Below, piece by piece: positions 3,453 through 25,152 of a stretch of DNA of 27,252 nucleotides (the first letter of the stretch is position 1; each line of letters opens with the position of its first letter). Source of the stretch: Baffinella frigidus. Lineage: Eukaryota > Cryptophyceae > Cryptomonadales > Baffinellaceae. The position numbers were made by a program, and so were the translations under genes. The notes beneath the pieces were generated by a model. It saw only the letters and a program-made list of their open reading frames with translations. It made no database searches and was not told the origin of the DNA. Location: assembly GCA_026770585.1 (NCBI GenBank), contig MU646358.1, positions 540,821 through 568,072 on the forward strand, in the 5' to 3' direction.

Positions 3453-3562
3453 TACAGGGGTACCTCGCTCATAAGAAAACGCTTCCCCCTAGGGACCCCC
3501 ATAGGGCCCTACTGTAGGGTCCTAGGGGGGGGGCGTTTTCTTATGAGCGAGGTATCCCTGTA
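3453..3562. mobile_element. MITE family A copy 4
   Basis: A 110-bp element nearly identical to the one at 3180-3289; only a few substitutions are seen (for example GTATCCCTG instead of GTACCCCTG at the right end). Flanking sequences of the two copies also look related (GCGAGGGGACC / GCGAAGGGAAC to one side), so part of the similarity may be due to a local segmental duplication. Confidence 0.85.
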
Positions 3563-8400: not shown

Positions 8401-8897
8401 GAGATGAAGTCTATTGAGGGCCGCGAAGGAAATCAGAGCCCCGAGAGCCCCACGTCTCCTTCCTGAAAGTGTCCCGCGAGCCACCCCATCAAGAACCAGA
8501 AACCCGAGAAACCCTGCTGCTGCCTGAGGGTGACCTTCCGGCATGGTGAGAGACGGAGGGAATGCCAATGGAGAGGCATGGTTTCCATTGGAGAGGCATG
8601 GTTTCTCCATTGGAGAAATCTCGCCGATGCGTGGTACCACGCACCGCCACCACTTGCCGGTTCGAAACGTAACGCTCCGACACCCTACGCTAGGGGTGTG
8701 CGTAGGAGCTGTCTGCGGGCGGGCCTATCTGTCCCGAGGCGGGCCTATCTGTCCCGAGGCGGGCCTATCTGTCCAGATGCTGGCCTATCTGTCCCGAGGC
8801 AGGCCTGTCTGTCCCGAAGCGGGCCTGTCAGTCCCGAGGCGGGGAGAGTGACCTGGCTCCACCCCTCGAGCGCGCAGGTGCTATATATATTTGTATA

Positions 8898-8929
<32 letters not shown>

Positions 8930-11900
8930 CATGTACATAGAAAGATGCAGATAGGGAGGAGAGGAACCTGGCACCACCCCTGGAGAGTGGAGATCATCTC
9001 GTCGAGTTGCCCCGGCTTGCAGTCGCGCCCCGCCGTTTCGTGCACCTGCATCCCGCGCGATTTCGTGAACATCCCGCGCGATTTCGTGAACATCCCGCGC
9101 GATTTCGTGAACGTCCCGCGCGATTTCGTGAATGACCCACAAGTAAAAATCCATAGGACCCTACGGTAGGCAATCCGTACTACGCGAAACCACTGGATGG
9201 CAACCGACACCTGCATCCCGAAAGTGGATTCTTGACTTGCGTGATGCCAGAAGTTGACACACGAAAACCCCAGGCGGGCCCCTCCGTTGAGAGCCGCATC
9301 CCGCGCGATTTCGTGAACATCCCGCGATTTCGTGAATAACCCCAACGTGAAAATCCGTAGGAACCTACGGTAGGCAATCCGTAGGAACATAGGGTTGCAT
9401 CCCGCATCCGCGTTGGCACCCCCAAAACTCCTTCGAGAAAGGCCTCAAGAAAGGCTTTGATTCAAGCTTTCTGCGAGATAAATCTGCAACCCCACCGAAG
9501 TGATTCTACGTGGCTCGTAAGTGCGTCAGACATGGTGAGAGACCTAGCTCTGTCTCGGTCTTTTTGGAATCACCGATTTGGTGAGCGTCACCTTGAGAAT
9601 AGTCGGTCAACCCGAGTGAGGCAGAGCTAGGAGACCGGCAGCCCCTTCTTCTTCTGGTCGAGCTTGACCTTGCAGAGCCCACGCGGTTCGGTTGCGACTA
9701 TGCGTGTGCGGTGTTAACAAACACTCCACGTGGTGCTTCTACGTTGCTCACGAGCCACTTTTCAAAAAACAACTCAGCATGTCTCACGTTTTTTGTTTTT
9801 CGCAAGTGTTTCCGGCATGGTGAGAGACGGAGGGAGACTTTTATTGAAGTTATGACGTCGGGGAGAGACCTGCAGCTCCTTCTTCTTCTGATCCAGCTTG
9901 CCCTTGAAGAGCCCGGCGTACATCCCTTCAATGATCACATCCTCCACCTGCGCTTGCGGTTTAGGGTTTGGGGTTTGGGGTTTGGGGTTTGGGGTTTGGG
10001 GTGTGGGGTTGAGTGTTTGGGGTTTGGGGCTTGGGGTTTGGGGTTCAGGATTTAGTGTTTGGGGTTTGGGGTTCAGCGTCTAAGGTTTAGGGACTGACCG
10101 TTCGCGTGTCCGTGAGGTCAAGCTCGCGAAGCAGAGCCTCGTAGGGGATCACCTGCCACGCGCGCGCCGAGGGTTATTGCGGTTTTCGCATCTGTCGGCC
10201 ACCAACCGATATGAAATTTATGAACAAGGGCTCCAATTCCGGCCACTTTTGGCATTTATATCACAAAATAAAACTCTAAAACTTCAGAATCACGCCAAAA
10301 GAGGTCAAGCTCGCGGAGCAGCGCCTCGTAGGGCATCACCTGCCACGCGCGGGCCGAGGGTTATTGCAACCCAGTCTTTCTATGATGTGCACCCGAGTCT
10401 TTCTATGATGTGAACCGAGTCTTTCTATGGTGTGCACCGATCACCTGCAGGAGGGGTAGAAACGTACGGTTATTACGCATCGAAATCACGCAAGAGCCGA
10501 GGGTTGAGTTAGTGGAAACGAGTCTTTCTATCATGTGCACCACGAATCGGCCACTTTACTTTCGGTGAGAAATCGCAGAATTCCTCCCCGATTCGCCGAA
10601 AGTCAAATAGCTGAATTCGGCTATGGCCTCTACAGGGACCTCAGCCTCAGCTATTTGACTTTTGGCGAATCGGGGAGGAATTCTGCGATTTGGGTGATCG
10701 GTAAGGGGTTAGGCAGACACCTTGTTCTCCGGGGTTAGTGGGTCAGGTCCAAAATCGAAAAATGGTTCAGGGTTTGGGGGCAAGGGTTTAGTTGTAGGGG
10801 CCAACCCGTATCTCAGAAAACGAGTTCTAAAACTCGTTTTCTTAAGTCAATTTCCCTACAAATTCGTCAACTTGTTCTTTACTCTCCGCATAAGTTGACA
10901 AATTTGTAGGCGAATTGACTTGAGAAAACGAGTTTTAGAACTCGTTTTCTGAGATAAACCCACACCTTGTTCTCGGCGGCGAGGGAGACGACGGTGAGCT
11001 GCTTGAGCTTCAGGGCCTGTTTCGGGTTCCGGGTTTAGGGTTTCGGGTTTCACATGTCGGGTTTCGGGCTTCGGGTTTCCGATTTCGGGTTTCGGGCCTA
11101 GGGTTTCGGGTTTCGGATCGACTTGTGCATTACCTGCGTCTCGTCGAGCGGCGGGAGGTTGCCGGCCGCACGGTACTCCGCGTATGTCCCGTACGCTGGA
11201 GAAAGCGTTGGGGGTTAGCCATCAACGAATCCGGAGTTCAATGAGCGTGCCTGCAGCGCGCAAACCGAACCGACTGCATCTCCTGGTGAAAGGGTTGAGG
11301 GCTGAGGGTTGAGGGTTGAGGAGGCGGCGAGGTTCCCTTCCGCACACTACGCGTGTGTCCCGCATGCTGCGTGTGTCCCGCATGCTGCGGGGGCGCGTGA
11401 GTAATCGCTTACGCTCTCAGCAAATTCGCTGACACGGTGCTGACTGGTACATCCGCGTATGTCCCGTATGCTGTGCGGGGGGTGTTCCGTAAGGTAACTA
11501 AACTTTGCAGCAGGGCGTTAACTGAACCGGGCAGGCTTCGTACACCAGGGCATGTTTGAAGCCGGCGCACCTGCCGAAACCACGTATGCCAAAGACCGTG
11601 TGAGAGAATTTGTTGAGAACATAAGAGAGCATTTCGAGACGTGTTTGTACGTATTTGGCAGACCGTAGAAGAGTATGGGTTAACAACGTATAACCCTGGC
11701 AGTCGCCACAGCAGCGCCCAGGGCGACGAATTCAGTGAAATTCGATCGACTGCGGGAGGAACATGCGCGCACTCCTGCACGTGCAGCGCACAAACCCACA
11801 AACCGCACCAGCCCGCCCTGAATTACCCGCGTCCCCCATGGTGCGGGTCCCTCGCCCTCCCGCACGCGCGCTGTGGAGCGCGCGCGTGATTCCGAGCGCG

Positions 11901-13508
11901 AAGCGCGGTAGGACAGGCGGTGCCGGCGTGAGGGCGTGGNNNNNNNNNNNNNNNNNNNNNNNNNNNNNNNNNNNNNNNNNNNNNNNNNNNNNNNNNNNNN
12001 NNNNNNNNNNNNNNNNNNNNNNNNNNNNNNNNNNNNNNNNNNNNNNNNNNNNNNNNNNNNNNNNNNNNNNNNNNNNNNNNNNNNNNNNNNNNNNNNNNNN
12101 NNNNNNNNNNNNNNNTCCTGTTATATCCTTACATCTCGTTATATCCTTACAGTTATATCCTTACTTCCTCTTAATCCTATTAATATATTCTTTTCTGAGA
12201 CAACACTTTCGAGTACGTTCAGCCACGGGGCGGCGTCGGGGGAGTTGGCGATGTTCCGGGGACGTTTTGAAGAAAGAAAAGGGCTGTATCTACTACGTGG
12301 GAGAGCTACATGTCATTTTAAGCCCTGCGTCCATCTACTATTTTCCCTTGAAATCGGCAAAAGTTGCCGAAAATGCCCACAAATAATTGACTTTGACGGA
12401 AAAGTAACCGCAGGAATGCCCAAAAAGGGCTCCAAGAAACCACCTAGCCCTCCCCCGTAGTATCTATCAGTACCGAAGATGCGGAGCGCGTGGAGCCACG
12501 GGGCGGTGTCCGGGGAGTTGGCGAGCGCCTCGATGTTCTCGTGCTCGAGGATGTCCCCGAAGTGGTACAGGTGCGGGTGCGAGATCGCCTGGTGCGCAAC
12601 GCGGTCAGCAGTTGGTCAGCAGATGCTGACCAACAGGCTCAATGTGGTCAGCAGCTGCGGGTGCGAGATCGCCTGTTGCACAACGCGGTCACTTTGTGGT
12701 GGCCTCTCCTTCTATCGCCACTCACCAACCCTCGCTGGCTGGAGAATCTCTGAGTGGTTTGGGTGGTTGTGAGAAGCACAAGAAAATGGTTGAGCTGAGC
12801 TCGAGGATGTCCCCGAATTGGTCAAGGTGCAGGTGCGAGATCGCCTGTGTGCAGGACGTTACTGGGGGGGGTCTGTGCGCGTGGCGTTGCGTTGGGGGGG
12901 GGTGAGCTGATATTCTGCTGAGGAAAGCATATGGGGACAGGGATCTTGGGAATGATGAGGTGGGGAGAGGGAGGAGATGAGTTTGGCAAAGTGGGTAGGG
13001 AAAGGAGCAGGGTGGGAGGCGGGATGAAGAAGGGGGGTGGGTGGGGAGAGAGAGCGAGCAAAGAGAAAAAGGTGAGCGCAGAGGTGGGATATTCCTCCTC
13101 AAGAAAAGAGGAATTTTGAGTCAAGACGAGCAGGGCGGAGGCACGAAACAGATCACCCGAAACGAGAGGTTGAACGGACGACGCACATAAAGAGGGGGAA
13201 ATGCGGCTGTGTGCGGAGGAGGGGGGCGGGGGGTTGCCTGCTGGATCAGCGCCACAGCCGCTCTACCCTTCGCCCCCTTCGCCAGGATCACGTACTGCGA
13301 CACCGATCCACACCCGTCAGTCTCACCTCCTGCACCGTCCCCGCACTGCCCCGGTTTCCACAAGATAGCACAACCCGCCCGATTCCGCGCCCTTGCATCT
13401 CCGAAAGGAAGAGGGCGCATTGGGGCGGCAGCGCTGGTCGCAAGGCGAGCAGCGAACTGCAGTTGCCCTCACCTGCTCGATGGCGGCATCTTCAAGCACG
13501 GTCTCCAT
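5428..13508 (-). CDS. CSN7: COP9 signalosome complex subunit 7 (CSN7), PCI domain
   Basis: The spliced gene has 11 exons, given from the start codon downward: 13508-13473, 13294-13238, 12588-12474, 11195-11134, 11016-10966, 10152-10099, 9947-9870, 9045-8968, 7798-7736, 6810-6748 and 5511-5428, for about 246 aa; the family is usually about 220-275. All junctions keep frame (phase 0, except exon 3/4 at phase 1). Diagnostic stretches are YVILAKGAKGRAAVALIQQ and AISHPHLYHFGDILEHENIE at the N-terminus; AYGTYAEYRAAGNLPPLDE, LKLKQLTVVSLAAENK and VIPYEALLRELDL, then EDVIIEGMYAGLFKGKLDQ, in the PCI winged helix; AGRDCKPGQLDEMISTLQGW, which matches plant CSN7 GRDLRPGQL; and a C-terminal helix ending TVEDVKKNLQ plus an acidic tail DLEGVEGAGLAEGMDMDDV. 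Introns are 117 to 1278 bp; acceptors are CAG, donors are weak, and intron 2 has a GC donor. CSN7 is a scaffold subunit of the cullin-deneddylating signalosome (nucleus/cytosol). The last exon is the least certain: it ends PPPPPMY then TAA through a 14-C run, and GAC|GTACCC could instead be a donor. Confidence 0.88.
5660..5782. mobile_element. MITE family C copy 1
   Basis: A 123-bp foldback lying in CSN7 intron 10. The left end is CTAGTTCTGCCTCAG with inner block TTATTCTGGCTC; the right end is GAGCCAGAATAAAACCC followed by AGGCAGAGCTAG. It has the same ends as the copies in CSN7 introns 7 and 8, the PDI intron near 18192-18320, 18993-19116 and D27 near 26822-26956. Confidence 0.75.
6071..6265. 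mobile_element. MITE family E, full copy
   Basis: A 195-bp foldback in CSN7 intron 10. The left end is AGAGCGGTTTTCGCATCTGT, the right end its reverse complement ACAGATGAGAAAACCGCTCT. Inner inverted blocks read ACAAGGGCTCCAATTCCGGC and GCCGGAATTGGAGCCCTTGT. Long open frames on both strands over 5884-6500 are an artefact of this symmetry. A half copy sits in CSN7 intron 5 at 10180-10300. Confidence 0.85.
6410..6449 (-). pseudogene. Echo of CSN7 exon 10 (3' half with donor)
   Basis: Reads NFAGTVHDVKKNLQ on the minus strand followed by a GTTGC donor, against DFAATVEDVKKNLQ in exon 10. The first third of the exon is missing, and the sequence runs directly into the end of the repeat element at 6448. 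It lies in intron 10, downstream of the intact exon. Confidence 0.8.
6554..6613. repeat. Two-unit tandem repeat of about 33 bp
   Basis: The unit starts TTTTACGCAGCCACTTGTAG and ends TTTTATAAAACG; two almost identical copies stand in tandem. The same CCACTTGTAGGTTT block is found inverted at about 4461-4480. Confidence 0.8.
6846..6976. mobile_element. Foldback element in CSN7 intron 9
   Basis: The ends are TAATTCCGGCGTCAACTTA and TAAGTTGACGCCGGAATTA, perfect inverted repeats, with an inner imperfect palindrome around CATTCCACCCTATAGAATTC. It starts only about 36 bp upstream (in the sense of the gene) of the exon 10 acceptor. The GTCAACTTA block is shared by several otherwise different elements in this window. 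Confidence 0.8.
7393..7422 (-). pseudogene. Echo of CSN7 exon 9 (3' half, stop gained)
   Basis: Reads DKIAVSEKA and then a TAG stop where the intact exon has CAG, on the minus strand. It is one of three or four copies of the exon 9 end scattered through intron 9, each next to a telomere-like cluster. Confidence 0.75.
7503..7523 (-). pseudogene. Echo of CSN7 exon 9 end with donor
   Basis: A short copy of the exon 9 3' end (CAGGCCCAGGAGGTCC on the minus strand), keeping the GAG|GTCC donor. Only about 20 bp are recognisable, but the order and the flanking telomere-like units match the neighbouring copies at 7393 and 7624. A still shorter GGGCCTTCTCC remnant is at 7250. Confidence 0.6.
7624..7652 (-). 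pseudogene. Echo of CSN7 exon 9 end with donor
   Basis: Reads IAFSEKAQE with the GAG|GTCC donor on the minus strand, against IAVSEKAQE in the intact exon at 7736-7798. The homology stops abruptly at its upstream edge. Confidence 0.8.
8182..8226 (-). pseudogene. MITE C end joined to echo of CSN7 exon 9 start
   Basis: CTAGCTCTGTCTCAGCC, a solo left end of MITE family C (8182-8198), is followed after a few bases by a copy of the exon 9 acceptor and first codons (minus-strand CAG|GCGTCGGACCGGATCGCC, reading ASDRIA). This fragment carries the 5' part of the exon, while those in intron 9 carry the 3' part: the echoes sit on the side of the exon they resemble. Confidence 0.75.
8718..8843. repeat. 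Tandem GAGGCGGGCCTATCTGTCCC minisatellite
   Basis: Six to seven units of 20 bp with the consensus GAGGCGGGCCTATCTGTCCC and a few substitutions; the later units read GCCTGTCTGTCCCGAAGCGG. It is in CSN7 intron 8. The same core is tandem at 3690-3780 and appears singly at 5644 and three times at 21035-21155. Confidence 0.9.
8852..8870 (-). pseudogene. Echo of CSN7 exon 8 end with donor
   Basis: Minus-strand CTCGAGGGGTGGAGCCAG|GTCACT copies the exon 8 end CTCCAGGGGTGGTGCCAG|GTTCCT. It lies in intron 8, beyond the AT tract and next to the 20-mer minisatellite. Confidence 0.7.
8881..8934. repeat. (AT)n microsatellite
   Basis: About 50 bp of alternating TA with a few C interruptions, inside CSN7 intron 8, between the exon 8 echo and the intact exon 8. 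Confidence 0.95.
9051..9132 (-). repeat. 21-bp tandem array derived from CSN7 exon 8 start
   Basis: Four near-perfect units of ATCCCGCGCGATTTCGTGAAC sit directly upstream of the exon 8 acceptor. Read on the minus strand, each unit encodes VHEIARD, against VHETAGRD at the exon start. The array is therefore most simply an expansion of a mutated copy of the first 21-24 bases of the exon. Two more units are at 9297-9335. Confidence 0.85.
9285..9335 (-). pseudogene. Second echo of CSN7 exon 8 start
   Basis: Minus-strand reading VHEIARDAALNGGARL: two 21-mer-like units plus about 25 bp resembling the middle of the exon. It is in intron 7, about 250 bp upstream of the intact exon 8, between two copies of the CCTACGGTAGGCAATCCGTA dispersed repeat. 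Confidence 0.65.
9544..9630. mobile_element. MITE family C copy (87 bp)
   Basis: Left end CTAGCTCTGTCTCGG, inner pair CACCGATTTGGTG, right end GTCAACCCGAGTGAGGCAGAGCTAG. It is the shortest complete family C copy and lies in CSN7 intron 7, ending six bases from a copy of the exon 7 end. Confidence 0.8.
9637..9682 (-). pseudogene. Echo of CSN7 exon 7 end with donor
   Basis: Minus-strand reading GLCKVKLDQKKKGLP followed by a GTCTCC donor, against GLFKGKLDQKKKELQ|GTCTCT in the intact exon at 9870-9947. Several residues have changed, so it is decaying. It abuts MITE C. Confidence 0.8.
9958..10095 (-). repeat. CSN7 intron 6: telomere-like repeat intron
   Basis: Intron 6 (9948-10098, 151 bp) starts GTCAGTCCCTAAACC in the sense direction, continues as CCCCAAA/CCCTAAA units to its 3' end and closes with AACCGCAAGCGCAG. 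There is almost nothing else in it. The repeat is the degenerate TTTGGGG/TTTAGGG type. Confidence 0.9.
10180..10300. mobile_element. MITE family E, half copy
   Basis: GCGGTTTTCGCATCTGTCGG through AAACTTCAGAATCACGCCAA matches the left 120 bp of the full element at 6071-6265. It ends where the exon 6 echo begins, and it separates intact exon 6 from its echo. Confidence 0.85.
10301..10339 (-). pseudogene. Echo of CSN7 exon 6 (5' part with acceptor)
   Basis: Minus-strand reading VMPYEALLRELDL after a GTGGCAG acceptor, against VIPYEALLRELDL in the exon at 10099-10152. The homology extends upstream into the intron (CCTCGGCCCGCGCGTGGCAG), so acceptor and exon start were duplicated together with the half MITE E between them. 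The open frame is intact for 13 codons but there is no donor. Confidence 0.85.
10570..10691. mobile_element. Foldback element in CSN7 intron 5
   Basis: About 43-bp inverted arms: left starts AAATCGCAGAATTCCTCCCC and ends AAGTCAAATAGCT, right is the reverse complement, with a 35-bp loop. It is highly symmetrical and probably young. Confidence 0.85.
10811..10957. mobile_element. Foldback element related to MITE family D
   Basis: Ends TATCTCAGAAAACGAGTT and its reverse complement, with inner blocks AAGTCAATT and GTCAACTTG, organised like the 160-bp family D elements at 14996 and 22235 but with different arm sequence. It starts 9 bp inside CSN7 intron 5, right after the exon 5 donor AAG|GTGTGG. 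Confidence 0.8.
11017..11133 (-). repeat. CSN7 intron 4: TTTCGGG telomere-like intron
   Basis: The whole 117-bp intron, in the sense direction, is GTAATGCACAAGTCGATCC followed by CCCGAAA units (with CCCTAAA and CCCGACA variants) and ends CCCGAAACAG. It separates ...LPPLDETQ from ALKLKQLTVV. The TTTCGGG variant is the same as at 4691-4773. Confidence 0.9.
11345..11475 (-). pseudogene. Echoes of CSN7 exon 4 start
   Basis: At 11446-11473 the minus strand reads ACAG|CATACGGGACATACGCGG, i.e. acceptor plus YGTYAD, against YGTYAEY in exon 4. At about 11345-11393 there are two or three further decayed units (TGCGTGTGTCCCGCA) of the same segment. All lie in intron 3, upstream of the intact exon. Confidence 0.7.
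11498..11686 (-). other. Unassigned open frame in CSN7 intron 3
   Basis: The open frame of about 62 codons includes SYVLNKFSHTVFGIRGFGRC. I do not recognise it. It has no convincing splice sites and is not CSN7-like. It may be relict coding sequence captured in the intron or chance. Confidence 0.2.
11940..12115. other. Assembly gap (Ns)
   Basis: A run of 176 N bases inside CSN7 intron 3, likely spanning a repeat. Right after it a TATATCCTTAC unit occurs three times (12121-12156). True gap size is unknown. Confidence 1.
12215..12256 (-). pseudogene. Echo of CSN7 exon 3 (3' part)
   Basis: Minus-strand reading NIANSPDAAPWLNVL, against IEALANSPDTAPWLHAL in exon 3 at 12474-12588. It is in intron 3, about 220 bp downstream of the exon. 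It is missing the codons for EAL and lacks a donor. Confidence 0.8.
12651..12690 (-). pseudogene. Echo of CSN7 exon 3 start with acceptor
   Basis: Minus-strand CGCGTTGTGCAACAG|GCGATCTCGCACCCG, reading AISHPQL, copies both the last 15 bp of intron 2 and the first codons of exon 3. The GTCAGCAG units between this copy and the exon (12603-12655) are a small local tandem repeat. Confidence 0.8.
12799..12844 (-). pseudogene. Second echo of CSN7 exon 3 start
   Basis: Minus-strand reading AISHLHLDQFGDILE after a CACACAG acceptor, against AISHPHLYHFGDILE. It is longer than the copy at 12651 and could in principle compete for splicing, but it runs into a stop-free stretch without a donor. Confidence 0.8.
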
Positions 13509-13709
13509 CGCTCACTGCCCTCCTCCGGAAGGAGTTGTCACACCACGGATGCGGAACGCGGGGATGAAGGAACAGGAAGAGGGGAGAACTTGTCGCCCAC
13601 CCGCGAACGCGAATTCACTCAACATCCAAATTGACTTTGGCCGACCTTTGGCCAAAGTCAATATTCACTTTTGAAAGTTGTCAACTTAACAGCGGCACAA
13701 AAATCTTGA
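13509..13709. promoter_or_regulatory. Divergent intergenic region CSN7 / PDI-like gene
   Basis: The two start codons (minus 13508, plus 13710) face away from each other with 201 bp between. This must hold both 5' UTRs and promoters, so a bidirectional promoter is likely. No TATA box is obvious. At 13631-13661 there is a perfect 12-bp-arm hairpin (TTGACTTTGGCC / GGCCAAAGTCAA, 7-nt loop), about 50 bp upstream of the PDI start, which could be a regulatory palindrome or a small foldback element. Confidence 0.6.
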
Positions 13710-16700
13710 ATGGGGCGCTGTTCTCTACCACTCCTTGTGCTCGCTGCGGGACTCCTGTTGCTCGCATCACCGCCTCTGGTGTCTGGCACAGACCCTACCC
13801 CCAAGGTATCGCCCCGCAGCCCCCTGTCTTTCGTCCTGCACAGAGCTTACTTCCCCCAAACAACGGATCTTGATTTCCGCCCAGGGAGGTCAAGGATGTG
13901 GACTGATAGAGCGGCGGCGGGGTGGCCAGGAGGCTGTCGTGGCGGATCATGTGAAGCCGAGCGACGTGGTCCTGCTCGATGCCGACAACTTTGCACGGTG
14001 TGCGCCCGCTCACTCCTCTTTCACTCCTCCGTCCGGACAAGAACGCAAAGCACGGTCGCCAGATGAGCATACGAAATCCTTGAGCGTAACTCACCCGCGC
14101 CAGCACATTTCCCCACGAAAAAGAGTGACCACGAACCAGCCTGAACAGATCAAGCTCAAACCCGCGAACCACGAACGGGAACAACCGCACGACCTCTTGA
14201 TCGCAGCTCAACCCCCCATCAGGCTGATGAAAGAGGGGACTTGGTTCGTCAACTTCTACGCCCCGTGGTGTGGGCACTGCAAGAGGATGGCGCCAATTTG
14301 GGAACAGGTGCGTGCCGCCCAACCATCCCGGCCTCTCGAGCAGTGCTTCGAAACGAAGAAAACCACGCGATTATCCATCCATGAGTAGAAATACACTTGG
14401 AATCCCCCCTTGATTCATCTTGTGTCAACATCATGTGCAGTTGCAGCGAGGTGTGTACGCTCCTAACAAAGCAACCATGTGGGGCGTGATTTTTTGGTGG
14501 ACCATTTTGGTGCGCGCCGCGATTCTCGGTGCTCAGGGCTCCTAGATAATCTATGTGTCGACAGAATTCGCAAAATACACAATTCAAAGTCACTTTATTG
14601 ACTTTGATTTATTTCGAATCCTAGCAGATTTTCATGCAAACCACATCGCTTCAGCCATAAAAGAGTTTTCAGACAGGAATCATGTCGAAATGTTGCGAGT
14701 TCGAGCTCGAATGAAAAAATCTTGCTGCTGTACACAATTCAATTAAAATCGCAACGTTTCATTATGTCCAACACAATTTGAGCTGAAAGTGGCCGTAAAA
14801 CGTTTCAGGGCAACTAAAACTTTGAGTTGCGAATTCTGTATTTTGTCACCACACAGATTCGTGGAACAGCCCCGCCGGCAGGCTCGTGAACGCCCGCGTG
14901 ACCGGTCACGCGGACGCCGAAGCCAACTGTCCGAGGTGACTGCCTTGTCATGTCTCACGCCTCATCGCTCGCCACCCGGGTTGGACCAAACCTTTTTATC
15001 TCAGATAAACACTTTTAAAAGTCGTTTTCCTAAGTCAACTCCCCCACAAATCCGGCGACTTATGCGTACGGGCTCGCAGAGTAAAGCATAAGTTGACAGA
15101 TTTGTGGGGGAGTTGACTTAGGAAAACGACTTTTAAAAGTGTTTATCTGAGATAACTTTGTACGACCAACAGGACCCCGAAGTGGACTGGAGCGAGTTCC
15201 TTTCCAAAGGTCGGTTTGTATGGATAAGTTGCCCGATCAGGGAACTCCCTGGTAAAAATCAACCTCTGTAAACGCACTTGATAAGTCCACTTGGGAGTCC
15301 TGGTGGTGGGGCGCGCGATTTCAGGAGACCCCTGGTAGAAATCGGGGGGTTTTAGAAATCAGAGGGTTTTAGAAATCAGAGGGTTTTAGAAATCGGAGGG
15401 TTTAGAAATCAGAGGGACCCCTGGTAGAAATCAGAGGGTTTGGTTTCCGGCGACCCCCGGTAGAAATCAGAGGGTTTTCCAACGAGCAAAAACCAGAGGG
15501 TCCAACGAGCAAAACACTTGATTCGGAGGACTGGTGGTTGGCGATGTCTCGCGTGGGCACCGATAGTGTTTCATCTGTACTACGAAAGGATTTTAGTGCG
15601 AAACGTTACGTTTGAAAATCTGGCTTCTGCCGTAGTGTCGAGCAGCTGGCGACGAAGCTGAAGGCGAGCAAAAGTGTATTATATCGTCGTTCTGTTTCAT
15701 ACTAATTCCAGAAATTGGTGAACTAGAAACATAATCACCATTTATTATAACGGTGCAGGTCGCGAAGCTGGACGTGTCTGGCCTAATTTGGCATGGAAGG
15801 GCTCCAAAGGCAATGAAAGTTACCACACAAAGGCGGTATCTCGGCTTTAAATAGGTCCCTCCAGCATTGTCGCGTGGTAATGTCTGGCCTGGGGAGCAGC
15901 TGGCGACGAAGCTGAAGGCGAGCAAAAGGTGCAGGTCGCGAAGCTCGACGTGTCTGGCCTAATTTGGCACCACGCAGGGCTGGAGGTGGGGGTATTTCAA
16001 AGTCATTTTTGGGGGGGAAACGGTATTCAAGTCAATTCTGAGAAGAAAACGGCTCAAAAGGCGCCCCAATGGCTCAAAGGGCGCCCCTGGAATACCCCCA
16101 CGTAGCGCCCTGTGTGGTGGAAGGGCTCCAAAGGCAATGAAAGTTACCACACAAAGGCGGTATCTCGGCTTTAAATAGGTCCCTCTAGCATTGTCGCGTG
16201 GTAAAGTCTGGCCTGGGGAGCAGCTGGCCACGAAGCTGAAGGCGAGCAAGGTGAAGGTCGCGAAGCTCGACGCTGACGAGAATCACGAGATCGCTGAAGA
16301 GGTCTGTCGATCTCAATATGTGGGGTCCCTAGGAATGTATTCATACAGACCCAGTCCGGTCCCGTCACCTCCCTGATTATATCTCACATTTGTCTTGACG
16401 TTGGATCTCACATTTGTCTTGACGTTTGTCTATCTCACATTTGTCTTGACGTTTGTCTTGACGTATATCTCACATTTGTCTTGACGTATATCTCACATTT
16501 GTCTTGACGTTGGTCTTGACGTTGGAGCCGTTTCGTACTTGTACGGCTTAAAAATTAACGGGGGGTGTACGGGGGGAATCCACGCGCGGGGAATTAGATT
16601 TGAGGAAGATGGAGGCGAGCACGGTGAAGGCCGCGAAGACGCTCACGAGAACCACTGTTCATCTTATCTCTATGGCTAGTGGGAAGATTTTGAAAGTCAA

Positions 16701-18876
16701 TCCTCACACACACTGTCAACTTCACTGGAAATCCGAGCACCCTTGGAGCCGTTTGAGGTACCCAGCATGGGTACCTTTTCTAAGTTGACGGCGTGTGTAG
16801 GGAAGTGACTTTAAGCAAGGTGAAGGTCGCGAAGCTGGACGCTGACGAGAACTACGAGATCGCTGAGGAAGTTGGATGATCTTAATATGTGGGGCCCCTA
16901 TGAATAGATTTGTAAAGCGGCTAGTGGATGGTATAGATTTTCAAATGATGGTCTTTCACGACGGAACTGGAGCCATTTTGACACTTTGAAGGAGTGAGTT
17001 TTATGATTTTACCAGTAGAGCCGCTTTACAAATCTATTCCTAGGGACCCGCCCTATGGATCTCCCCGAGGCTCTCGAGTCGAAACGAGGGGTACACATTG
17101 TGTGTACCACGAGGCAAATATTTTGGGGGGTTGGCCAACCCGTGAGACACAGAGTTTGTACCTTTGTACCACCTAGGTTCCGCTCACAAGACTGGGGCAG
17201 ATCAGGGAAGGGTTCACAGACCGTGTGGGTGATTTATCAAGGACGCACAGGCTACTGGTAAATCTACGCTAGACCTGATGGGGAGCAATCGCAAAAGTCA
17301 ATTCCGACAAATTACCTTCAAACCCTGTCAACTTTTGGAGCAACAGCTGGATTTCCGGCTGTTTTGTGTAAAGGGAGTCGATGAGATTGCCCACACTCAG
17401 GTCTAGCGTAGTAAGAATGGCGCTCTCCACGTTGACACGGTGGCCATGTTGCTACCATCGGATGGCGCGCTACAATTTCACGGAGGGTGGGAATGCATGG
17501 CGGCTATGCTGGTTTCATTGCAGTACACTCCTAAACCCTAAACCCTAAACCCTAACGGAGCGTCTCACAGAGACGCTCCGTGGGACACAGAGACGTTGAA
17601 TCGCAGAAACACGTTACGCTTCGTCCGTGGGAGAGTGTCGAGCACGAGCCCGCGTGACCAGGGATAATGTGTAGTGAATATCATTTTCTTTCTCGTGCAG
17701 TATTATGTCCGGGCATACCCAACGTGGCGCTCTTCACGTTTTCTCCTCGAGGGCACTCTTGACGTTTCCCCCTCTTTAGGCACTCTTGACCTTGCCCCCT
17801 CGTGCAGTACTATGTACGGGCATACCCAACGTTCAAGATCATCAATGGGGACGCGGTCGTGGAATTCGCCGGCGAAAATTCTCTCGAAGGGTGCAACCTC
17901 AACCCTCAACCCTACACCCTTCACCCTGAACCCCAAACCCTGAGCCCAAAACCAAAAACACAAAACACTAAACCCTGAACCCTGAACCCTAAACAGTACA
18001 CACTTAACCCTAAACCATAAACCCTAAACCCTAAACCCTAAACCCTAAACCCTAAACAGTACACACTAAACCCCAAACCATAAACCATAAACCCTAAACT
18101 CTCTCCAAGGGTGCACTCCCACCCTCTTTCCTCGCCCTTGACACGGCGAGTTTCACCACACCAGAATGAGGACTCTGTGCAGCTAAATGTCCCAGCTCTG
18201 CCTGATTTAATCTGGTCTCCTCAAACGGAAGAGCTTGGAAGTTGTTTTGCCTGGTGTGTGGTACAAATGCGTCAACTTTTGGTCTGAAAATATTATTTAA
18301 CTCGACTGAGGCAGAGCTAGATAAGAAGAGCCACCTGCCTCAGAATAAGGACGCAGAGTTTAGGGTGTAGGGTGTAGGGTGTAGGGTGTAGTTGTTTTTC
18401 CAAGAGGCTCAGGACCTGGCCATGTTGGCTAAAACACGCTGCGAGCCCCAAGACTGTTGACTAATCACACGTCTTTCTGGTACTAAGCCTGCCCGGACCA
18501 TGCACCATCCGCGTACAAACCCTGCCAGGGTTAGTCAACCGTCGTAACCGTCGCACAACGGTTAACCGGCAGGCAACTTTCGCAGGTTCGTCAACTTTCG
18601 ACGGTTGAACTAAAAGGTGACTTTCGTGGGCAGGTTCGTGAAATTTGTGGAAGACTACCAGAAGCGGACGCACGCTGCAGTGGACGAGGTAACCCCTAAA
18701 CCCTAAACCCTAAACCATAAACCATAAACCATAAACCATAAACCATAAACCATAAACCATAAACCATAAACCCTAAACCATAAACCATAAACCCTAAACC
18801 CTCAGCCCTAAACCAGGGGCTACAAGACGCCGTCACAGGGGCGGGCCTGCTAGCGCAGTTTTGGTCCGCACTCTAA
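13710..18876 (+). CDS. Protein disulfide isomerase-like protein (single thioredoxin domain, signal peptide)
   Basis: Exons: 13710-13805, 13930-13997, 14223-14307, 15173-15217 (less sure), 16224-16301, 17808-17890, 18634-18688 and 18817 onward; phases agree at each join. Exon 1 is a signal peptide ([20 protein letters not shown], then PPLVSGTD). The thioredoxin fold follows: strand [11 protein letters not shown], active site [19 protein letters not shown] with the WCGHC redox motif, [17 protein letters not shown], the cis-Pro loop [26 protein letters not shown], and a last helix [18 protein letters not shown]. It would form or isomerise disulfides in the ER. The order resembles TMX/PDI a domains. 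The last exon reads [19 protein letters not shown] and stops at a TAA inside a telomere-like tract (about 189 aa); alternatively a donor at 18864 leads to further exons, possibly the one at 20880. It is head-to-head with CSN7. Exon 5 and its neighbours have several partial copies in adjacent introns. Confidence 0.85.
14563..14850. mobile_element. Weak foldback in PDI intron 3
   Basis: CAGAATTCGCAAAATACACA at 14565 faces TTGCGAATTCTGTATTTTGT at about 14825 as imperfect inverted repeats around 240 bp of AT-richer DNA, unlike the GC-rich surroundings. There is no coding sequence. It is likely an older element. Confidence 0.45.
14996..15155. mobile_element. MITE family D copy 1 (160 bp)
   Basis: A near-perfect foldback with ends TTATCTCAGATAAACACTTT and its reverse complement, and inner blocks AAGTCAACTCCCCCACAAAT and GACTTATGCGTACGGG. 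It is flanked by a 4-bp duplication CTTT (14992-14995 and 15156-15159). The copy at 22235-22394 is also exactly 160 bp and almost identical. It ends 17 bp before the PDI exon 4 start. Confidence 0.9.
15335..15485. repeat. Tandem GGTAGAAATCAGAGGGTTTT repeat
   Basis: Seven or so units of about 17-20 bp with the core AGAAATCAGAGGGTTTT, interspersed with GACCCCTGGT. It is in PDI intron 4 and is followed by AACGAGCAAAA doublets. Confidence 0.85.
15645..15773 (+). pseudogene. Split echo of PDI exon 5
   Basis: 15645-15674 reads LATKLKASK after a GAGCAG acceptor and then diverges at AAAAG|TGTATT. 15759-15773 resumes after GGTGCAG with VAKLD. Together they form an exon copy opened by about 85 bp exactly at the internal AAG|GT site of the exon, as if a new intron had been placed there. 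Confidence 0.75.
15793..16250 (+). repeat. Tandem duplication carrying PDI exon 5 start
   Basis: About 135 bp beginning TGGAAGGGCTCCAAAGGCAA and running through GGCCTGGGGAGCAG|CTGGC occur at 15793-15929 and again at 16118-16250 with few changes. The left copy contains a partial exon (15900-15950, LATKLKASK then GTGCAGGTCGCGAAGCTCGAC); the right one leads into the intact exon 5. A separate foldback element (about 15966-16119, ends CCACGCAGGGC / GCGCCCTGTGTGG) splits them. Confidence 0.85.
16382..16530. repeat. Tandem ATCTCACATTTGTCTTGACG array
   Basis: Five to six units of 20-26 bp built from ATCTCACATTTGTCTTGACG with TTTGTCTTGACGT half-units between. It is in PDI intron 5. Confidence 0.95.
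16611..16655 (+). pseudogene. Decayed echo of PDI exon 5
   Basis: GGCGAGCACGGTGAAGGCCG, CGAAGACGCTCACGAGAACC: corresponds to [15 protein letters not shown] with about five substitutions and a 9-bp loss. It is in intron 5, 310 bp downstream of the intact exon. Confidence 0.65.
16813..16870 (+). pseudogene. Echo of PDI exon 5 (3' two thirds)
   Basis: Reads [17 protein letters not shown] after AGCAAG, then GTTGGATGA. The homology with the intact exon's surroundings continues downstream (GATCTTAATATGTGGGGCCCCTA against GATCTCAATATGTGGGGTCCCTA), where a foldback element (16903-17038) has inserted. The reading frame is intact, and this copy could serve as an alternative exon if AG at 16814-16815 is used. 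Confidence 0.75.
16903..17038. mobile_element. Foldback element in PDI intron 5
   Basis: Ends AATAGATTTGTAAAGCGGCT and AGCCGCTTTACAAATCTATT are perfect 20-bp inverted repeats around a 96-bp middle. It is inserted next to the exon 5 echo. Confidence 0.85.
17264..17411. mobile_element. Foldback element in PDI intron 5
   Basis: Ends CTACGCTAGACCT and AGGTCTAGCGTAG, with inner blocks AAAAGTCAATTCC and CTGTCAACTTTTGG. It is a small non-coding element of about 148 bp. Confidence 0.75.
17526..17581. repeat. Short telomere-like tract abutting a perfect hairpin
   Basis: Four CCCTAAA-type units (17526-17554) run directly into ACGGAGCGTCTC-ACA-GAGACGCTCCGT (17555-17581), a perfect 12-bp stem with a 3-nt loop, followed by another GAGACG. 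The junction between telomere-type repeat and hairpin is exact. Confidence 0.85.
17694..17724 (+). pseudogene. Echo of PDI exon 6 start with acceptor
   Basis: CGTGCAG|TATTATGTCCGGGCATACCC AACG, reading YYVRAYPT, copies the acceptor and first 24 bp of exon 6 at 17808. It then diverges. The two are about 107 bp apart. Confidence 0.85.
17891..18116 (+). repeat. Telomere-like tract at start of PDI intron 6, with exon-end echo
   Basis: After the donor GG|GTGCAACC the intron consists of about 200 bp of CCCTAAA/CCCTGAA/ACACTAAA units. It ends at CTCTCCAAGGGTGCACTCCC (18099-18118), a copy of the exon 6 end plus donor (CTCTCGAAGG|GTGCAACCTC). Thus the telomere-like tract is bracketed by two copies of the exon end. 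Confidence 0.85.
18192..18320. mobile_element. MITE family C copy in PDI intron 6
   Basis: Left end CAGCTCTGCCTGATTTAATC, right end CGACTGAGGCAGAGCTAG, about 129 bp, with GTCAACTTTTGG inside. A short GTGTAGG array with the opposite telomere polarity follows at 18358-18391. Confidence 0.75.
18689..18816 (+). repeat. PDI intron 7: telomere-like repeat intron
   Basis: The 128-bp intron is GTAACCCCTAAACCCTAAAC, then eight or more CATAAAC units and CCCTAAA units, closing with CCCTAAACCAG. It has no other sequence. The flanking exons are ...THAAVDE and [10 protein letters not shown]. Confidence 0.9.
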
Positions 18877-18977
18877 ACCCTAAACACTCAACCCTGAACC
18901 CTAAACCCTGAACTCTAAACCCTGGACCCTAAACCCTAAACCCTAAACCCTAAACCCTAAACCCTAAACCCTAAACC
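18872..18977 (+). repeat. Telomere-like tract after last PDI exon called
   Basis: About 105 bp of CCCTAAA with variants, the last eight units perfect. Its first TAA is the in-frame stop of the PDI reading frame if no further splicing occurs. Confidence 0.9.
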
Positions 18978-18992
18978 CACCACTGTAAAGTG

Positions 18993-19116
18993 CCGCCTCT
19001 GTTAATCTGGGCTTCTCGTTACATATTTTTGAATGCGCTTTGTACTGGAGCGTGTGTACGGAGTCCTCATCTAAATATATTCAATGAGGAGCCCAGCTTT
19101 TCTCAGGCAGAGCTAG
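18993..19116. mobile_element. MITE family C copy (diverged)
   Basis: GCCTCTGTTAATCTGGGCTTCTC at the left and GAGCCCAGCTTTTCTCAGGC AGAGCTAG at the right, with GGACTCC/GGAGTCC-type internal symmetry. It starts directly after the telomere-like tract. Confidence 0.6.
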
Positions 19117-19119
19117 ACT

Positions 19120-20775: not shown

Positions 20776-20786
20776 GGGCTCCTGGC

Positions 20787-20866
20787 AGCGCTGTAAAGTC
20801 ACTAAAGTGTGTAAAGTCACTGAAGTGTGCAACGTGACTAAAGTGTGTAAAGTCACTAAAGTGGGG
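20787..20866. repeat. Tandem GTAAAGTCACTAAAGTGT repeat
   Basis: Four units of about 18-19 bp (GTAAAGTCACTAAAGTGT with CAACGTGACT variants), ending 14 bp before the candidate exon at 20880. Confidence 0.9.
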
Positions 20867-20879
20867 GAACGTGGTGCAG

Positions 20880-20930
20880 GTGTTGATTGGAGTGCTGTTT
20901 GCGATTCGGGAGAAGGACAAGCTGCATTGA
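20880..20930 (+). CDS. Candidate C-terminal exon: membrane segment plus KxKxx-type tail
   Basis: After a GTGGTGCAG acceptor the frame reads VLIGVLFAIREKDKLH and stops. It has a short hydrophobic stretch followed by lysines at -5 and -3 from the C-terminus, the pattern of ER-retrieval tails of type I membrane proteins. A membrane-bound PDI (TMX-like) would suit this tail, and the upstream exon ends with hydrophobic GLLAQFW. But phases do not match directly (exon at 18817 would end in phase 2 at its only donor), so an unseen intermediate exon is required. Treat as a hypothesis. Confidence 0.25.
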   Translation: MLIGVLFAIREKDKLH

Positions 20931-21540
20931 GTGTTTATGTTCAGAGTTCTTTGCGATGTGAAGCTCAGTGAAGACACGGGATACCAGTCTCGCGGGTGTC
21001 ATATGGCCATGTTTCTCGCACCATTTCTGAGGCTATTTCTCTCGAGGCGGGCCTATCTTCCACCCTTCATGAGGCTGTTTTTCTCGAGGCGGGCCTACAT
21101 GTATGTATCTTACACCCTTCCTGAGGCTATCTTGCTCGAGGCGGGCCTATCTCGCACCACCCCTGGGGCGGACCTCACACATCAGCTCAAGTGCGCAATC
21201 GATTGGCTGTTGCTTGCGGTTTGAAACAACGTGAGGAGAAGCATTCTTCATGAGCTGCTCTTTCTAGTCTTTGCGGTTCGAATCACAGTGCGAGACGTGG
21301 TGTGAAGCACAGCGAGCGCCAGCAGTGAGGTGGGGTGAGGAGAGGGGGAGAGACTCGGGCGTGGATAGGTACGTGGGGGCGTGTGTGAAGATAGGCGCGT
21401 GAGAGGGAGGGCGATGGGGGGGGAGTGACGATGAGGGAGAGGAGTGATCCCACCTTTTTTGTGCTGCACCCACAGAGGTTGTCCTTTAGGTCCTTTAGGT
21501 TCTTCGAGCTCCCAACATAGGCGGACACCGGAACTGGTTC

Positions 21541-21645
21541 TATCCCTTAAGTGGCCAGGCCCCCAAATTTGCGGGCCAAGAGGTCCTAGGCAGGTCCTAG
21601 GGCCCTACCGTAGGGCGTATGAGCCTACTGGGCACTTAAGGGATA
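21541..21645. mobile_element. MITE family B copy
   Basis: 105 bp, ends TATCCCTTAAGTGGCCAG and GGGCACTTAAGGGATA, core GTCCTAGGGCCCTACCGTAG. It is close to the copies at 2676 and 23986. Either side lies a direct repeat CACCTTNTTTGTGCTGCNCC (about 21450 and 21719). Confidence 0.85.
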
Positions 21646-21772
21646 GAAAGGCCATGCGTCCTTTCGGATCACATCAAGCCCCTCGATCAGCTACATGTAA
21701 GCGATCCAGATGAGATTCCACCTTCTTTGTGCTGCTCCCGCAGAGGTTGTTCTATTGGCCACCCTGTACATG

Positions 21773-21902
21773 CACAGGGTTACCTCGCTCATAAGAAATC
21801 AACCCCCGCTAGGCCCCTAAAGCTGTACAGTAGGCCTATGCCTGGGGCCCCATGGTGATCCTAGGGGGGGCAGGTGTTTCCTATGAGCGAGGTACCCATG
21901 TA
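21773..21902. mobile_element. MITE family A copy 5
   Basis: Starts CACAGGGTTACCTCGCTCAT and ends ATGAGCGAGGTACCCATGTA, 130 bp, with the C-run/G-run core. It is flanked by TGTACATG-like bases on both sides. Confidence 0.8.
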
Positions 21903-21979
21903 CACTGTTGCATGTACGCGATTCAGATGGATCATCTTTAGTGTATTGTAGAAATGGGCTCCGCGGGGCTCCCTGCACC

Positions 21980-24466
21980 ATGCACTACAAGTGCTCGATT
22001 CTGGGCAAGGACGACAAGGTTCTCCGCTTCGTGAGTCCCCTAATCCTTAAACCCTGATCCCCAAACTCTAAACCCTGAACCCTCAACCCTAAACCCTAAA
22101 CTCCAAACCCTAAACCCTACACCAGGGGAGTGACCATCACGACTTCCGGGAGCCTCCCGTCGAAACCTCGGGCTGGCGACACTGGGATGATGAAAGGTTC
22201 ATTCTGACAGAAGCAGACAAGGCGCTCGCGGTTCTTATCTCAGATAAACACTTTTAAAAGTCGTTTTCCTAAGTCAACTCCCCCACAAATCTGTCAACTT
22301 ATGCGTACGGGCTCGCAGAGTAAAGCATAAGTTGACAGATTTGTGGGGGAGTTGACTTAGGAAAACGACTTTTAAAAGTGTTTATCTGAGATAAGTTCGC
22401 CGGAATGGAAGCATCAAGCTCCGCATGGTGGTGCACCTGTACCTTGCAGAGTAGGCGCTGTCGGAGAGGGGGATGGGGGGGAGGCGCAAGACGGGGGCGT
22501 GTTGCGGGTGAAAGAGGCACCGCGCGAGTGGTGGTGCACCTGTACCTCGCAGAATCTGCGAGGTACAGGTTTTTTTTTGGGGGGGGGGTAAGTCGTGAGG
22601 AGGGCGTGGTGAAGGTGAGAGAGGCGCCGCGCGAGTGGAGGGTGGGGGTGAATCGCTTGTTTGGTGAGAGGTTGTTGCTCGAGACTTGCGGCGTGTGTGT
22701 GAACGAAGCCTGATTTCTGATTTATGTAGAGATGAAGACGGTTCCCCTCTCGCTTGCTCGCGCGCCTTCTCTCTGCGTCATCTCGCTATCTCTCTCGCCC
22801 TTCGCGAAAAGTGCACAACTCACAAGCCACGTCTTGCGCGAGTAATCCCACACGACGGACTACGAGGAGATTTTGGGCCCATTTTGTGCCGAGTTTCCGT
22901 TACCTTATCCGTAGGAACCCCCCCATGTCCCTACGGGTTGCCTACCGTAGGGTCCTGGGTCTCATCGCTGAGGGATAATTCAAAATCCCTTCGAAGTCCG
23001 CTGTGCGGCGTGCACTCTGTGATCGCATGGAGGAGCATCAAGAGCCGCCCCCCCCCACAAGACAACCGTAGGTCCCTATGGTGGTCCTGGGGGGGGGGGG
23101 CTGCTTATGAGCGAGGCACCCCTGTAGACATACACATGTAATATCGGACCCCGCCCCCCCCAAATGCCTCTCAAACAGACGTTTATTCCACACACCCGTA
23201 CACACCACCTCAATACCCGAACATAGCACCCTGGGGATGCAGTCCCGTGTAGGGCGGTCACTCCGGTCATCCTACACGGGACTGTATCCCCAGAACCTCT
23301 TCAATATCCGTGGGGCAGCGTGCCCTCTGGAGGCTTCATCGAGGTCCCGACGAGCTTGCCGCACACATCAGCGGGGGCGTCGTCGTCCTGCCGCATTCCA
23401 AGGTAAGTGAAAATCTCATCTCGGAAGATGCCTTAATCAGTTCCCTAATTGGCGTTGTCATTTAATTAAGAGGCCTAATTGAATTTACTATGCGCTAACT
23501 AATTTCTCCTATTCGACCTCCTATTGAAAAGGAAGTGAGGCGTCGTGCTCCTGCCAGACCGCGCGATTCATCAGACACCACACCACAATCAACGATCGAT
23601 TCATCAGGCCCCACAGTCGGAAACACGTTTGCTCCCACCAGGAGCACACAACAGCCGAGTTCACCGCATGCCCACCCCCGTTGCCGAACCCCAGCCTCCT
23701 GCTCACTAGCCTCGGTGGTGGCGGTGCATACAGGTATCTCTTAAGTGCCCAGTAGGCTCATACGCCCTACCGTAGGGCCCTAGGACCTGCCTAGGACCTC
23801 AGCCCCCCAAATTTGGAGGCCTGGTCACTTAGGGGATACGTAGCACGGGGGTAGCCAGCCTTGCTCTCACCTGACGAGGATCGGGGGTGGAGCGGCGCCC
23901 CCCGTGTGCGATCCTTTCCGGCCACCGCACGCCACTACCCTTCCCGACACCCAACGCCGTCATTAACACCCTGAACCCCACACCCTATAACCCTCAAGTG
24001 GCCAGCCGGGTCAAAATTGACCCGCAAGAGGTCCTAGGCAGGTCCTAGGGCCCTACGGTAGGGCGTATGCGCCTACTGGCCACTTAAGGGATAAACCATG
24101 TTCAAGGGGTGCGCGCACTAGGGTAGCCAGCCTTGCCCTCACCGGACTTTCGAGGGTGGAGCGCCCCCCCCCGTGCGCACGGGGTCTGCATGCACCCTAA
24201 ACTACCCTAAGCCCTGAACCCTGACCTCGCACGGGTCTACATGCACCCTAAACTACCCTAAGCCCTGAACCCTGACCTCAACCTTGCTCAAGGGGTGCGC
24301 GCACGGGGGGGTGGGACGGGGGGGGGGGGGTGTAGCTCTCACCAAAGCGGCAACGGCCCCGCGGCGTCCCCCATGGGCGCTCTTCTCCGGGCATTGGGTG
24401 AGGCACGGCGACGCGAACGCCGGATCGTTCTCCAGGGCCTGCGAGAAGAGGAGGAGGCCACGCCAG
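21980..24466 (+). CDS. Unidentified spliced gene (hypothetical protein)
   Basis: Exons inferred: 21980-22030 (MHYKCSILGKDDKVLRF, donor GTGAGT), 22126 to about 22234 (GSDHHDFREPPVETSGWRHW then DDERFILTEADKALAV), 22399 onward with the copy at 22527-22562 (MVVHLYLAESAR, donor AG|GTACAG), 23294-23402 (donor AAG|GTAAGT; ...GPDELAAHISGGVVVLPHSK) and 24403-24466 (ARRRERRIVLQGLREEEEAT). Phases agree through the last three joins: phase 2 into 23294, and phase 0 into 24403. I do not recognise the family; there is no signal peptide or membrane segment. The HLYLAE duplication differs only at synonymous sites (CTT/CTC, GAG/GAA), which supports the frame. A 160-bp MITE with 4-bp duplication lies within the second exon, so the gene is either broken there or the MITE is spliced out. 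The 3' end is not found. The first intron is telomere-like. Confidence 0.5.
22031..22125 (+). repeat. First intron of unidentified gene: telomere-like repeat
   Basis: The 95-bp intron reads GTGAGTCCCCTAATCCTTAA, then CCCTGAACCCTCAACCCTAA-type units, and ends ACCCTACACCAG|GGG. The ending is nearly the same as that of PDI intron 7 (CCCTAAACCAG|GGG). Confidence 0.85.
22235..22394. mobile_element. MITE family D copy 2 inside an exon
   Basis: 160 bp, almost identical to 14996-15155, flanked by GTTC on both sides (22231-22234 and 22395-22398). Coding-like sequence runs up to it (KALAV) and, with one GTTC removed, continues after it (RRNGSIKLRMVVHLYLAE). Unspliced it introduces a TAA after eight codons. 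A GT at 22231 and AG at 22395 or later (for example before CTCCGCATGG, phase 0) could allow splicing. Confidence 0.9.
22462..22640 (+). repeat. Local tandem duplication with exon-end copy
   Basis: GTGAAAGAGGCACCGCGCGA GTGG (22508) and GTGAGAGAGGCGCCGCGCGA GTGG (22615) are duplicated units. The first leads into GTGGTGGTGCACCTGTACCT CGCAG, the second copy of the exon end of the unidentified gene. The short palindrome CCTGTACCTCGCAGA/TCTGCGAGGTACAGG spans the donor at 22562, so the donor would sit in a hairpin. Confidence 0.75.
22855..22998. repeat. Dispersed repeat, CCTACGGGTTGCCTACCGTA type
   Basis: A close match to 4180-4345 over about 140 bp, with the same order of blocks (TACGA-GGATTTT, TCCGTAGGAACCCCCCCATG, TTCAAAATCCCTTCGAAG). 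Confidence 0.75.
23048..23126. mobile_element. MITE family A, truncated copy
   Basis: C-run core and intact right end CTTATGAGCGAGGCACCCCTGTA; the left terminal repeat is missing. It is in an intron of the unidentified gene. Confidence 0.7.
23233..23291. repeat. Near-perfect 21-bp hairpin next to a splice acceptor
   Basis: GGGGATGCAGTCCCGTGTAG G and its reverse complement with one mismatch, 17-nt loop. The right arm runs into CCCCAG|AACC, the acceptor of the exon at 23294, so the hairpin covers the polypyrimidine/acceptor zone. Confidence 0.85.
23735..23838. mobile_element. MITE family B copy (inverted)
   Basis: Ends TATCTCTTAAGTGCCCAG and CTGGTCACTTAGGGGATA with the family core in the opposite orientation to the copy at 23986. 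Confidence 0.8.
23986..24093. mobile_element. MITE family B copy
   Basis: Ends TATAACCCTCAAGTGGCCAG and CTGGCCACTTAAGGGATA. It lies between two copies of GGGTAGCCAGCCTTGC(T/C)CTCACC (23851 and 24121), part of a local duplication that also includes GGTGGAGCG. Confidence 0.8.
24180..24300 (+). repeat. Tandem duplication with telomere-like units
   Basis: A 50-bp unit (CGGGTCTACATGCACCCTAA ending ACCCTGACCTC) occurs twice in tandem (24181-24230 and 24233-24280). GGGGTGCGCGCAC also repeats (24107 and 24293). The unit contains degenerate CCCTAAA repeats. Confidence 0.8.
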
Positions 24467-25096: not shown

Positions 25097-25152
25097 GTTT
25101 GGGTTTGGGGTTGGGTTCCGGTTTGTTTTTAAAAGGTTCAGGGTTTAGGGCT
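25097..25152 (-). repeat. Telomere-like TTTGGGT/TTTAGGG tract
   Basis: Seven degenerate units (GGTTTGGGTTTGGGGTTGGG...GGTTTAGGG). The C-rich strand is on the minus strand, the same as the D27-like gene upstream of it. Confidence 0.8.

Follow-up and report, generated by a model that had tools for sequence, protein, structure and literature searches.

Predicted introns composed largely of telomere-type repeat in genes of Baffinella frigidus

INTRODUCTION

How introns arise, and why some lineages gain many of them, is an old question. The mass sources known so far are transposon-like introners. In Daphnia, introns are reportedly born by insertion at staggered breaks, in which case short direct repeats are expected.

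Introners are intron families whose sequence similarity extends nearly to both splice sites (PMC9860276), and hairpin introners occur in Amoebophrya (PMC7789003). Part of the introner families show target-site duplication. Human interstitial telomeric insertions lie in introns in 31% of cases, a share described as fitting random insertion, and their effect on splicing is left open by the authors (PMC7215372). Plant telo boxes are single units that are most enriched in 5' UTRs, and telomerase action is proposed for their spread (PMC3022908). No report of introns made of telomere-type repeat, or of a register-locked tandem heptamer, was found in the open-access titles and abstract starts searched; one could exist elsewhere, even for this genome.

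Here, we describe predicted introns of this kind in a window of 27,252 nucleotides of the B. frigidus genome (C56:540821-568072) and in a P4-ATPase gene elsewhere in the same genome.

RESULTS

Telomere-type tracts and four near-pure introns. The window was searched by cyclic alignment to CCCTAAA with a score threshold of at least 24, and 20 dinucleotide shuffles served as the control. Twenty-three tracts reached the threshold, whereas 3/20 shuffles had one such tract and 17/20 had none. The repeat is of the plant telomere type and is found at interior sites. Since the window lies inside its contig, both of the telomere-like window ends are interior; among 8 contig ends read, none carried a telomere in the right orientation.

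Intron borders were set from reading frames and homology, which gave 64 introns in four genes. Fill was measured with a tract caller in which seven heptamer variants were permitted and a tract was ended by a drop in score. The original prediction had named four introns as consisting almost wholly of telomere-type repeat, and this was borne out: they are 84% to 98% CCCTAAA-type tract, with the tract 1 to 17 nt from the splice sites.

11017..11133, minus strand: CSN7 intron 4, 117 nt, 84% CCCGAAA-type tract in C-rich sense; donor gap 17 nt, acceptor gap 2 nt
9948..10098, minus strand: CSN7 intron 6, 151 nt, 92% CCCCAAA-type tract in C-rich sense; donor and acceptor gaps 6 nt each
18689..18816, plus strand: last intron of the PDI-like gene (sixth in the present model, intron 7 originally), 128 nt, 98% CCATAAA/CCCTAAA tract; donor and acceptor gaps 1 nt each
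22031..22125, plus strand: first intron of a third gene, 95 nt, 92% tract in C-rich sense; donor gap 7 nt, acceptor gap 1 nt

When these four introns are read through without splicing, zero stops are found in just 1 of 12 frame counts, so unspliced arrays would stop translation.

Gene models in the window. One of the window genes encodes a CSN7 subunit.

6748..13508, minus strand: CSN7 gene, ten exons placed, nine introns
11196..12473, minus strand: CSN7 intron 3, 2% C-rich-sense tract (11291-11321); contains a run of N
10153..10965, minus strand: CSN7 intron 5, C-rich-sense tract over 3% of its length; also carries hairpin elements plus a copy of the exon 6 edge
6811..7735, minus strand: CSN7 intron 9, 925 nt, several C-rich-sense tracts totalling 30%; also carries partial exon 9 edge copies

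Most of the length of the joined exons can be aligned to solved CSN7 subunits (best E value, 9.5e-45), and the predicted protein reaches the Pfam cut-offs for the CSN7 bundle and PCI models. The reading frame is open across the ten exons, and all genome matches to CSN7 (6/6) fall in the window. The predicted junctions of introns 4 and 6 are backed by the homology of the joined exons.

The second gene encodes a PDI-like protein. Large tracts had been predicted in further introns also, and both CSN7 intron 9 and PDI-like intron 5 indeed hold them.

13710..18876, plus strand: PDI-like gene, seven exons placed; the exon 4 border was picked among near-identical copies
17891..18633, plus strand: PDI-like intron 5 (intron 6 originally), 28% C-rich-sense tract from 3 nt after the donor
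18869..18978, plus strand: C-rich tract where the PDI-like gene ends, overlapping the final 8 bases of the last exon

The PDI-like protein, compared with structures and Pfam models in a version with two extra residues at one joint, matches PDI-family structures; the best match stops at residue 157, the last residue before the final intron. The exon 18817-18876 falls at the very end of the matched region or outside it, one weaker match extending four residues past 157. The third gene gave no Pfam match. Homology backs neither this exon nor the third gene, and the last PDI-like intron and the third-gene intron rest on open frames and GT..CAG ends. In the present model, the telomere-type tract behind the PDI-like gene provides the TAA stop codon of that gene (18869-18876). 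PDI-like intron 5 also contains the single G-rich-sense tract of a modelled window intron (18354-18391).

An earlier PDI-like exon 4 border was used for the CSN7 and PDI-like rotations, the duplication test, the unit variants, the direct-repeat pairs, and the splice-signal densities. In the rotations, the exon bases in tract numbered 0 for CSN7 (mean, 57) and 8 for the PDI-like gene (mean, 40), both within the rotation range; heavily filled introns numbered 2 in CSN7 (rotation maximum, 1) and 1 in the PDI-like gene (rotation maximum, 1).

Near 25.87-25.97 kb, the minus strand encodes a D27-like C-terminal domain, with two C-rich tracts in its vicinity. The D27-like exon is present in two copies (25637-25740 and 25866-25967; two matched stretches, judged by eye to be copies).

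25958..26003, minus strand: C-rich tract directly upstream of the D27-like domain exon
25087-25176, minus strand: C-rich tract near the D27-like domain

A P4-ATPase gene elsewhere in the genome. Twenty ten-kb stretches were drawn, of which 16 were only N, one was mostly N, and three were readable. Of the readable stretches, the one whose tract was the most one-sided was extended into its neighbours (of four, one was all N and two were partly N). The gene was thus picked for its tracts, and therefore its share of tract introns overstates that of the genome.

C15:96659-116581 (stretches L035, L023, and L036): P4-ATPase gene, 49 exons placed, at least 48 introns, 1219 codons

The predicted reading of 1219 amino acids is without a stop and matches a solved phospholipid-transporting ATPase (E value, 8.7e-178). 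A six-frame Pfam scan of L023 (C15:100001-110000) found nothing because the exons are short. The intron phases are distributed 34/4/10. Among the 36 junctions within the alignment rows examined (12/48 fall outside the rows), 27 are ungapped for four residues on each side, including those of 13/26 heavily filled introns.

All of the P4 introns (48/48) contain C-rich-sense tract, 26 are at least 80% tract, and 3 contain any G-rich-sense tract. Tract occupies 26/3660 exon bases, whereas 2000 rotations placed 1615 there on average and never fewer than 1010; the 26/48 introns with at least 80% tract compare to a rotation mean of 4.8 and a maximum of 10. Exon avoidance and fill thus fall outside the rotations, in agreement with the predicted uneven placement of tracts relative to splice sites. 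The more specific claim, that tracts end within bases of the splice sites, holds for the four named window introns; in the P4 gene, closeness by itself goes weakly beyond chance. Tract lies within 10 nt of the donor in 35 introns (rotation mean, 22.8; maximum, 35), of the acceptor in 30 (mean, 22.8; maximum, 37), and of both ends in 22/48 (mean, 11.5; maximum, 22). The P4 tract introns use the donors GTACAC, GTAACC, GTCTGA, and similar sequences.

In the predicted CSN7 and P4-ATPase structures, the tract introns are homology backed and have GT or GC..AG ends, and the arrays stand between exons and hardly ever inside them.

Extent of the intron class. The 64 predicted introns, whose exons join in frame, have 61 GT and 3 GC donors and 63 CAG acceptors and one AAG acceptor. 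The GC donors belong to CSN7 intron 2 (12589-13237) and P4 introns 14 and 21. At least 80% tract was seen in 30/64 introns (4/16 among the window introns), any C-rich-sense tract in 57/64, with a fill below 80% in 27 of these, and any G-rich-sense tract in 4/64.

Telomere-type introns are not local to the window. The assembly comprises 382 Mb in 1364 contigs, and four consecutive CCCTAAA units occur at 30,621 positions (overlaps counted) versus 2 for the reversed motif. Two exact units followed by CAGG within six bases were found 998 times genome-wide versus 136 times for the permuted word GACG. GTRAGT donors beside a tract gave just 8 matches genome-wide.

Register of the splice sites. The register was counted where tract lies within 8 nt of the intron end in question and is clear, and it was assigned without using the bases of the splice site itself. 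Splice sites tend to follow the register of the repeat, the acceptor more strictly than the donor, which is a new observation here and hints at an unfamiliar mode of making or rebuilding introns. The C of the acceptor CAG lies at heptamer position 1 (AAA-N-CAG) in 21/31 introns (chi-square P value, 3e-14), and the donor G lies at position 2 in 17/37 introns (chi-square P value, 1e-6). In 59 unmodelled tracts, position 1 was found for 10/14 CAGG and for 13/22 CAG sequences. Similarly, among 100 listed matches out of the 998 in the genome, 48 have exactly one base between AAA and CAGG, and this base is C in 41.

A single C-to-G change in CCCTAAA creates GT at the preferred donor register, and the donor may therefore sit where mutation is easiest. 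The creation of CAG costs two changes in 6/7 registers (hand count), so something else must lie behind the acceptor lock; the candidates are the junction formed at insertion, common descent, and splice-site context. For telomeric sequence inserted at a break, the break-site bases would lie in register with the repeat; the tract ends here do lie in register, but constraint on the splice sites could produce the same pattern.

Strand orientation. Over the 64 introns, C-rich-sense tract amounts to 9,770 bp and G-rich-sense tract to 224 bp. In a model-free orientation test on 72 tracts from six other stretches, part of which belong to the P4 gene, CAGG followed the tract in 33/72 C-rich readings versus 8/72 G-rich readings, and AGGT preceded it in 19/72 versus 6/72. 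Bare GT before the tract showed no orientation difference (56/72 versus 53/72).

In 16 heavily filled introns, the sense and antisense densities per 100 nt were 0.66 and 12.77 for GT, 1.60 and 7.84 for AG, and 0.12 and 2.91 for [CT]3AGG, respectively. Branch-site motifs of the CTNAY type were no denser in tract introns (0.70 per 100 nt) than in the others (0.69). We infer that the strand choice reflects selection by splicing. The proposal that the repeat is tolerated because it is spliced out fits the strand bias, and to that extent it stands.

Selection against AG within the arrays was also considered and rejected. A-to-G changes at positions 6 and 7 of the intron units number 2 and 0, respectively, versus 46 at position 5, and in the 118 non-genic window units, they number 0 and 0 versus 7. 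AG-making variants are as rare outside genes as in introns, and selection on units is therefore not claimed.

Degeneracy and remainders of the arrays. Intron-specific variants, such as CCCTACA, CCCGAAA, CCATAAA, CCCCAAA, and others, tend to occur. Perfect units make up 124/757 in 40 introns versus 49/118 in the non-genic window tracts, the former share being lowered by the unit parser, which also takes chance units outside tracts in introns. Degenerate arrays with intron-specific variants point to seeding and amplification in place. Outside the tract, the 30 heavily filled introns keep 2 to 55 nt, with at most 12 nt in 19/30. It is therefore unlikely that the repeat entered an ordinary intron from which nothing was lost; the repeat would have made the intron or replaced its content.

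Target-duplication-like matches at the intron ends amount to 121 matched bases versus a permuted mean of 121.5 (40 introns). The original prediction had invoked telomerase acting at double-strand breaks or repair with telomeric DNA; neither is supported by the duplication counts, which show no excess, nor by the degenerate arrays. Support is strong for the telomere-type nature of the repeat and for its position between exons; it may have been inserted into exons, as the broader idea of the prediction has it, or may have taken over older introns.

Exon copies and inverted-repeat elements. Thirty-one partial exon copies were identified in neighbouring introns (CSN7 and PDI-like introns; L023, C15:100001-110000), with 0 in the reversed-exon control. 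The acceptor edge is carried by 16/19 upstream exon copies and the donor edge by 10/12 downstream copies. The copies make up 24 pairs of direct repeats flanking inserts of roughly 30 to 550 bp that are mostly not of telomere type, as if insertions or duplications across splice sites had enlarged the introns. Long exon-edge direct repeats were considered as the source of the tract introns. Of the inserts in the 24 pairs, 3 contain tract (93%, 38%, and 32%) and 21 do not; because most are tract free, exon-edge direct repeats do not explain the tract introns, and this candidate was rejected.

Near-perfect inverted repeats at 10809-10956, 14996-15155, and 22234-22395 have arms of 65 to 71 nt and similar sequences; they lie within or next to CSN7 intron 5, PDI-like intron 3, and the third gene, and they look like MITE-type elements. 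At 10153-10348 (CSN7 intron 5/exon 6), a 120-bp insert has the true acceptor edge of exon 6 on one side and a 67-nt copy of that edge on the other; by eye, the insert resembles part of the inverted-repeat element at 6062-6274. The inverted-repeat elements at 3180-3289, 3450-3562, and 23735-24093 are rich in CCTAGG and TACCTCGCTCATAAGAAA motifs. The window hairpin elements had no match in scans of viral and prokaryote contigs, and an Rfam scan gave nothing at the gathering threshold.

DISCUSSION

The reading that we favour, and hold to be rather probable, is that B. frigidus has a genome-wide class of introns that telomere-type repeat created or refilled, the repeat having multiplied in place and been kept in a splice-tolerant orientation. 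Repeat DNA would have entered genes at or beside CAGG sites or taken over the body of older introns, and multiplication in place after entry could then have given each intron its own variants. Within genes, the array would persist as CCCTAAA, the strand poor in GT and AG, since TTTAGGG sense would give acceptor-like and GT sites about every unit; we propose that the CCCTAAA sense survives in genes for this reason. The donor may form at the exon-repeat junction (G + TAAACCC giving GTAAAC), and the acceptor may form at the repeat-exon junction (CC + AGG giving CCAG|G).

A bolder form of this reading, which we offer tentatively as a possibility, is that telomere-type repeat is a ready-made intron. 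Placed at a CAGG site in one register, it would bring a donor (GTAAAC or GTACAC), an acceptor (CCAG|G), and between them a sequence with few GT and AG dinucleotides; it would be spliced from birth and could be the source of a large part of the introns of this lineage.

Alternatively, replacement could account for the introns without any gain. A short repeat seed would have taken over old introns and expanded by slippage while the rest was lost, and telomeric DNA would be unneeded. The 27/57 introns with less than 80% tract, the degenerate arrays tending to intron-specific variants, and the adjoining of ordinary and tract introns in CSN7 and the PDI-like gene are all consistent with such a process. 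However, replacement by itself leaves unexplained the acceptor register and the shrinkage of the remainders to a few nucleotides at both ends, and we regard it as doubtful as the whole explanation.

It is considerably less probable that the tract introns are copies of one another made in the manner of introners, each a mobile element with fixed ends that comprises the entire intron and its telomere-type body. Several P4 introns have common starts (GTACAC) and ends (AAGCAG), and one hairpin-element type is present in more than one window gene, as such copying would predict. The intron ends are nevertheless without a duplication signal, the starts and bodies are highly variable, and terminal inverted repeats were not noted in the tract introns, which were not searched for them one by one. 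Misassembly or decayed, unspliced genes, to which the abundant partial exon copies might point, are very improbable given the stop-free P4 reading of 1219 amino acids over 49 exons, with homology along its length, and the CSN7 frame open over ten exons, with all six genome matches to CSN7 in the window.

If introns were indeed created or refilled by telomere-type repeat, a telomere-type minisatellite in which splice sites take preferred positions would be a different intron source, tying together telomere-type DNA, repeat expansion, and splicing. Gene finding with such repeats masked could miss or break these genes.

The introns described here resemble introners in that many introns of one genome have common sequence reaching near both splice sites. 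They differ in that the body is a 7-nt telomere-type tandem array with intron-specific variants and no end-duplication signal. Daphnia intron gain is analogous in its idea of introns born by insertion, whereas here there is no direct-repeat excess and one repeat family supplies the DNA. Plant telo boxes are short telomere motifs in or near genes, whereas here the arrays are long and form introns. With the mammalian telomeric sequences inserted at breaks (PMC7215372), the introns have in common a telomere-type repeat at nonterminal sites, some of them within introns. In contrast to those insertions, the arrays here make up whole introns, are strongly strand biased and degenerate, and end in register at splice sites, and while placement relative to introns fits chance in mammals, it departs from chance here, with 26/3660 P4 exon bases in tract versus a rotation mean of 1615.
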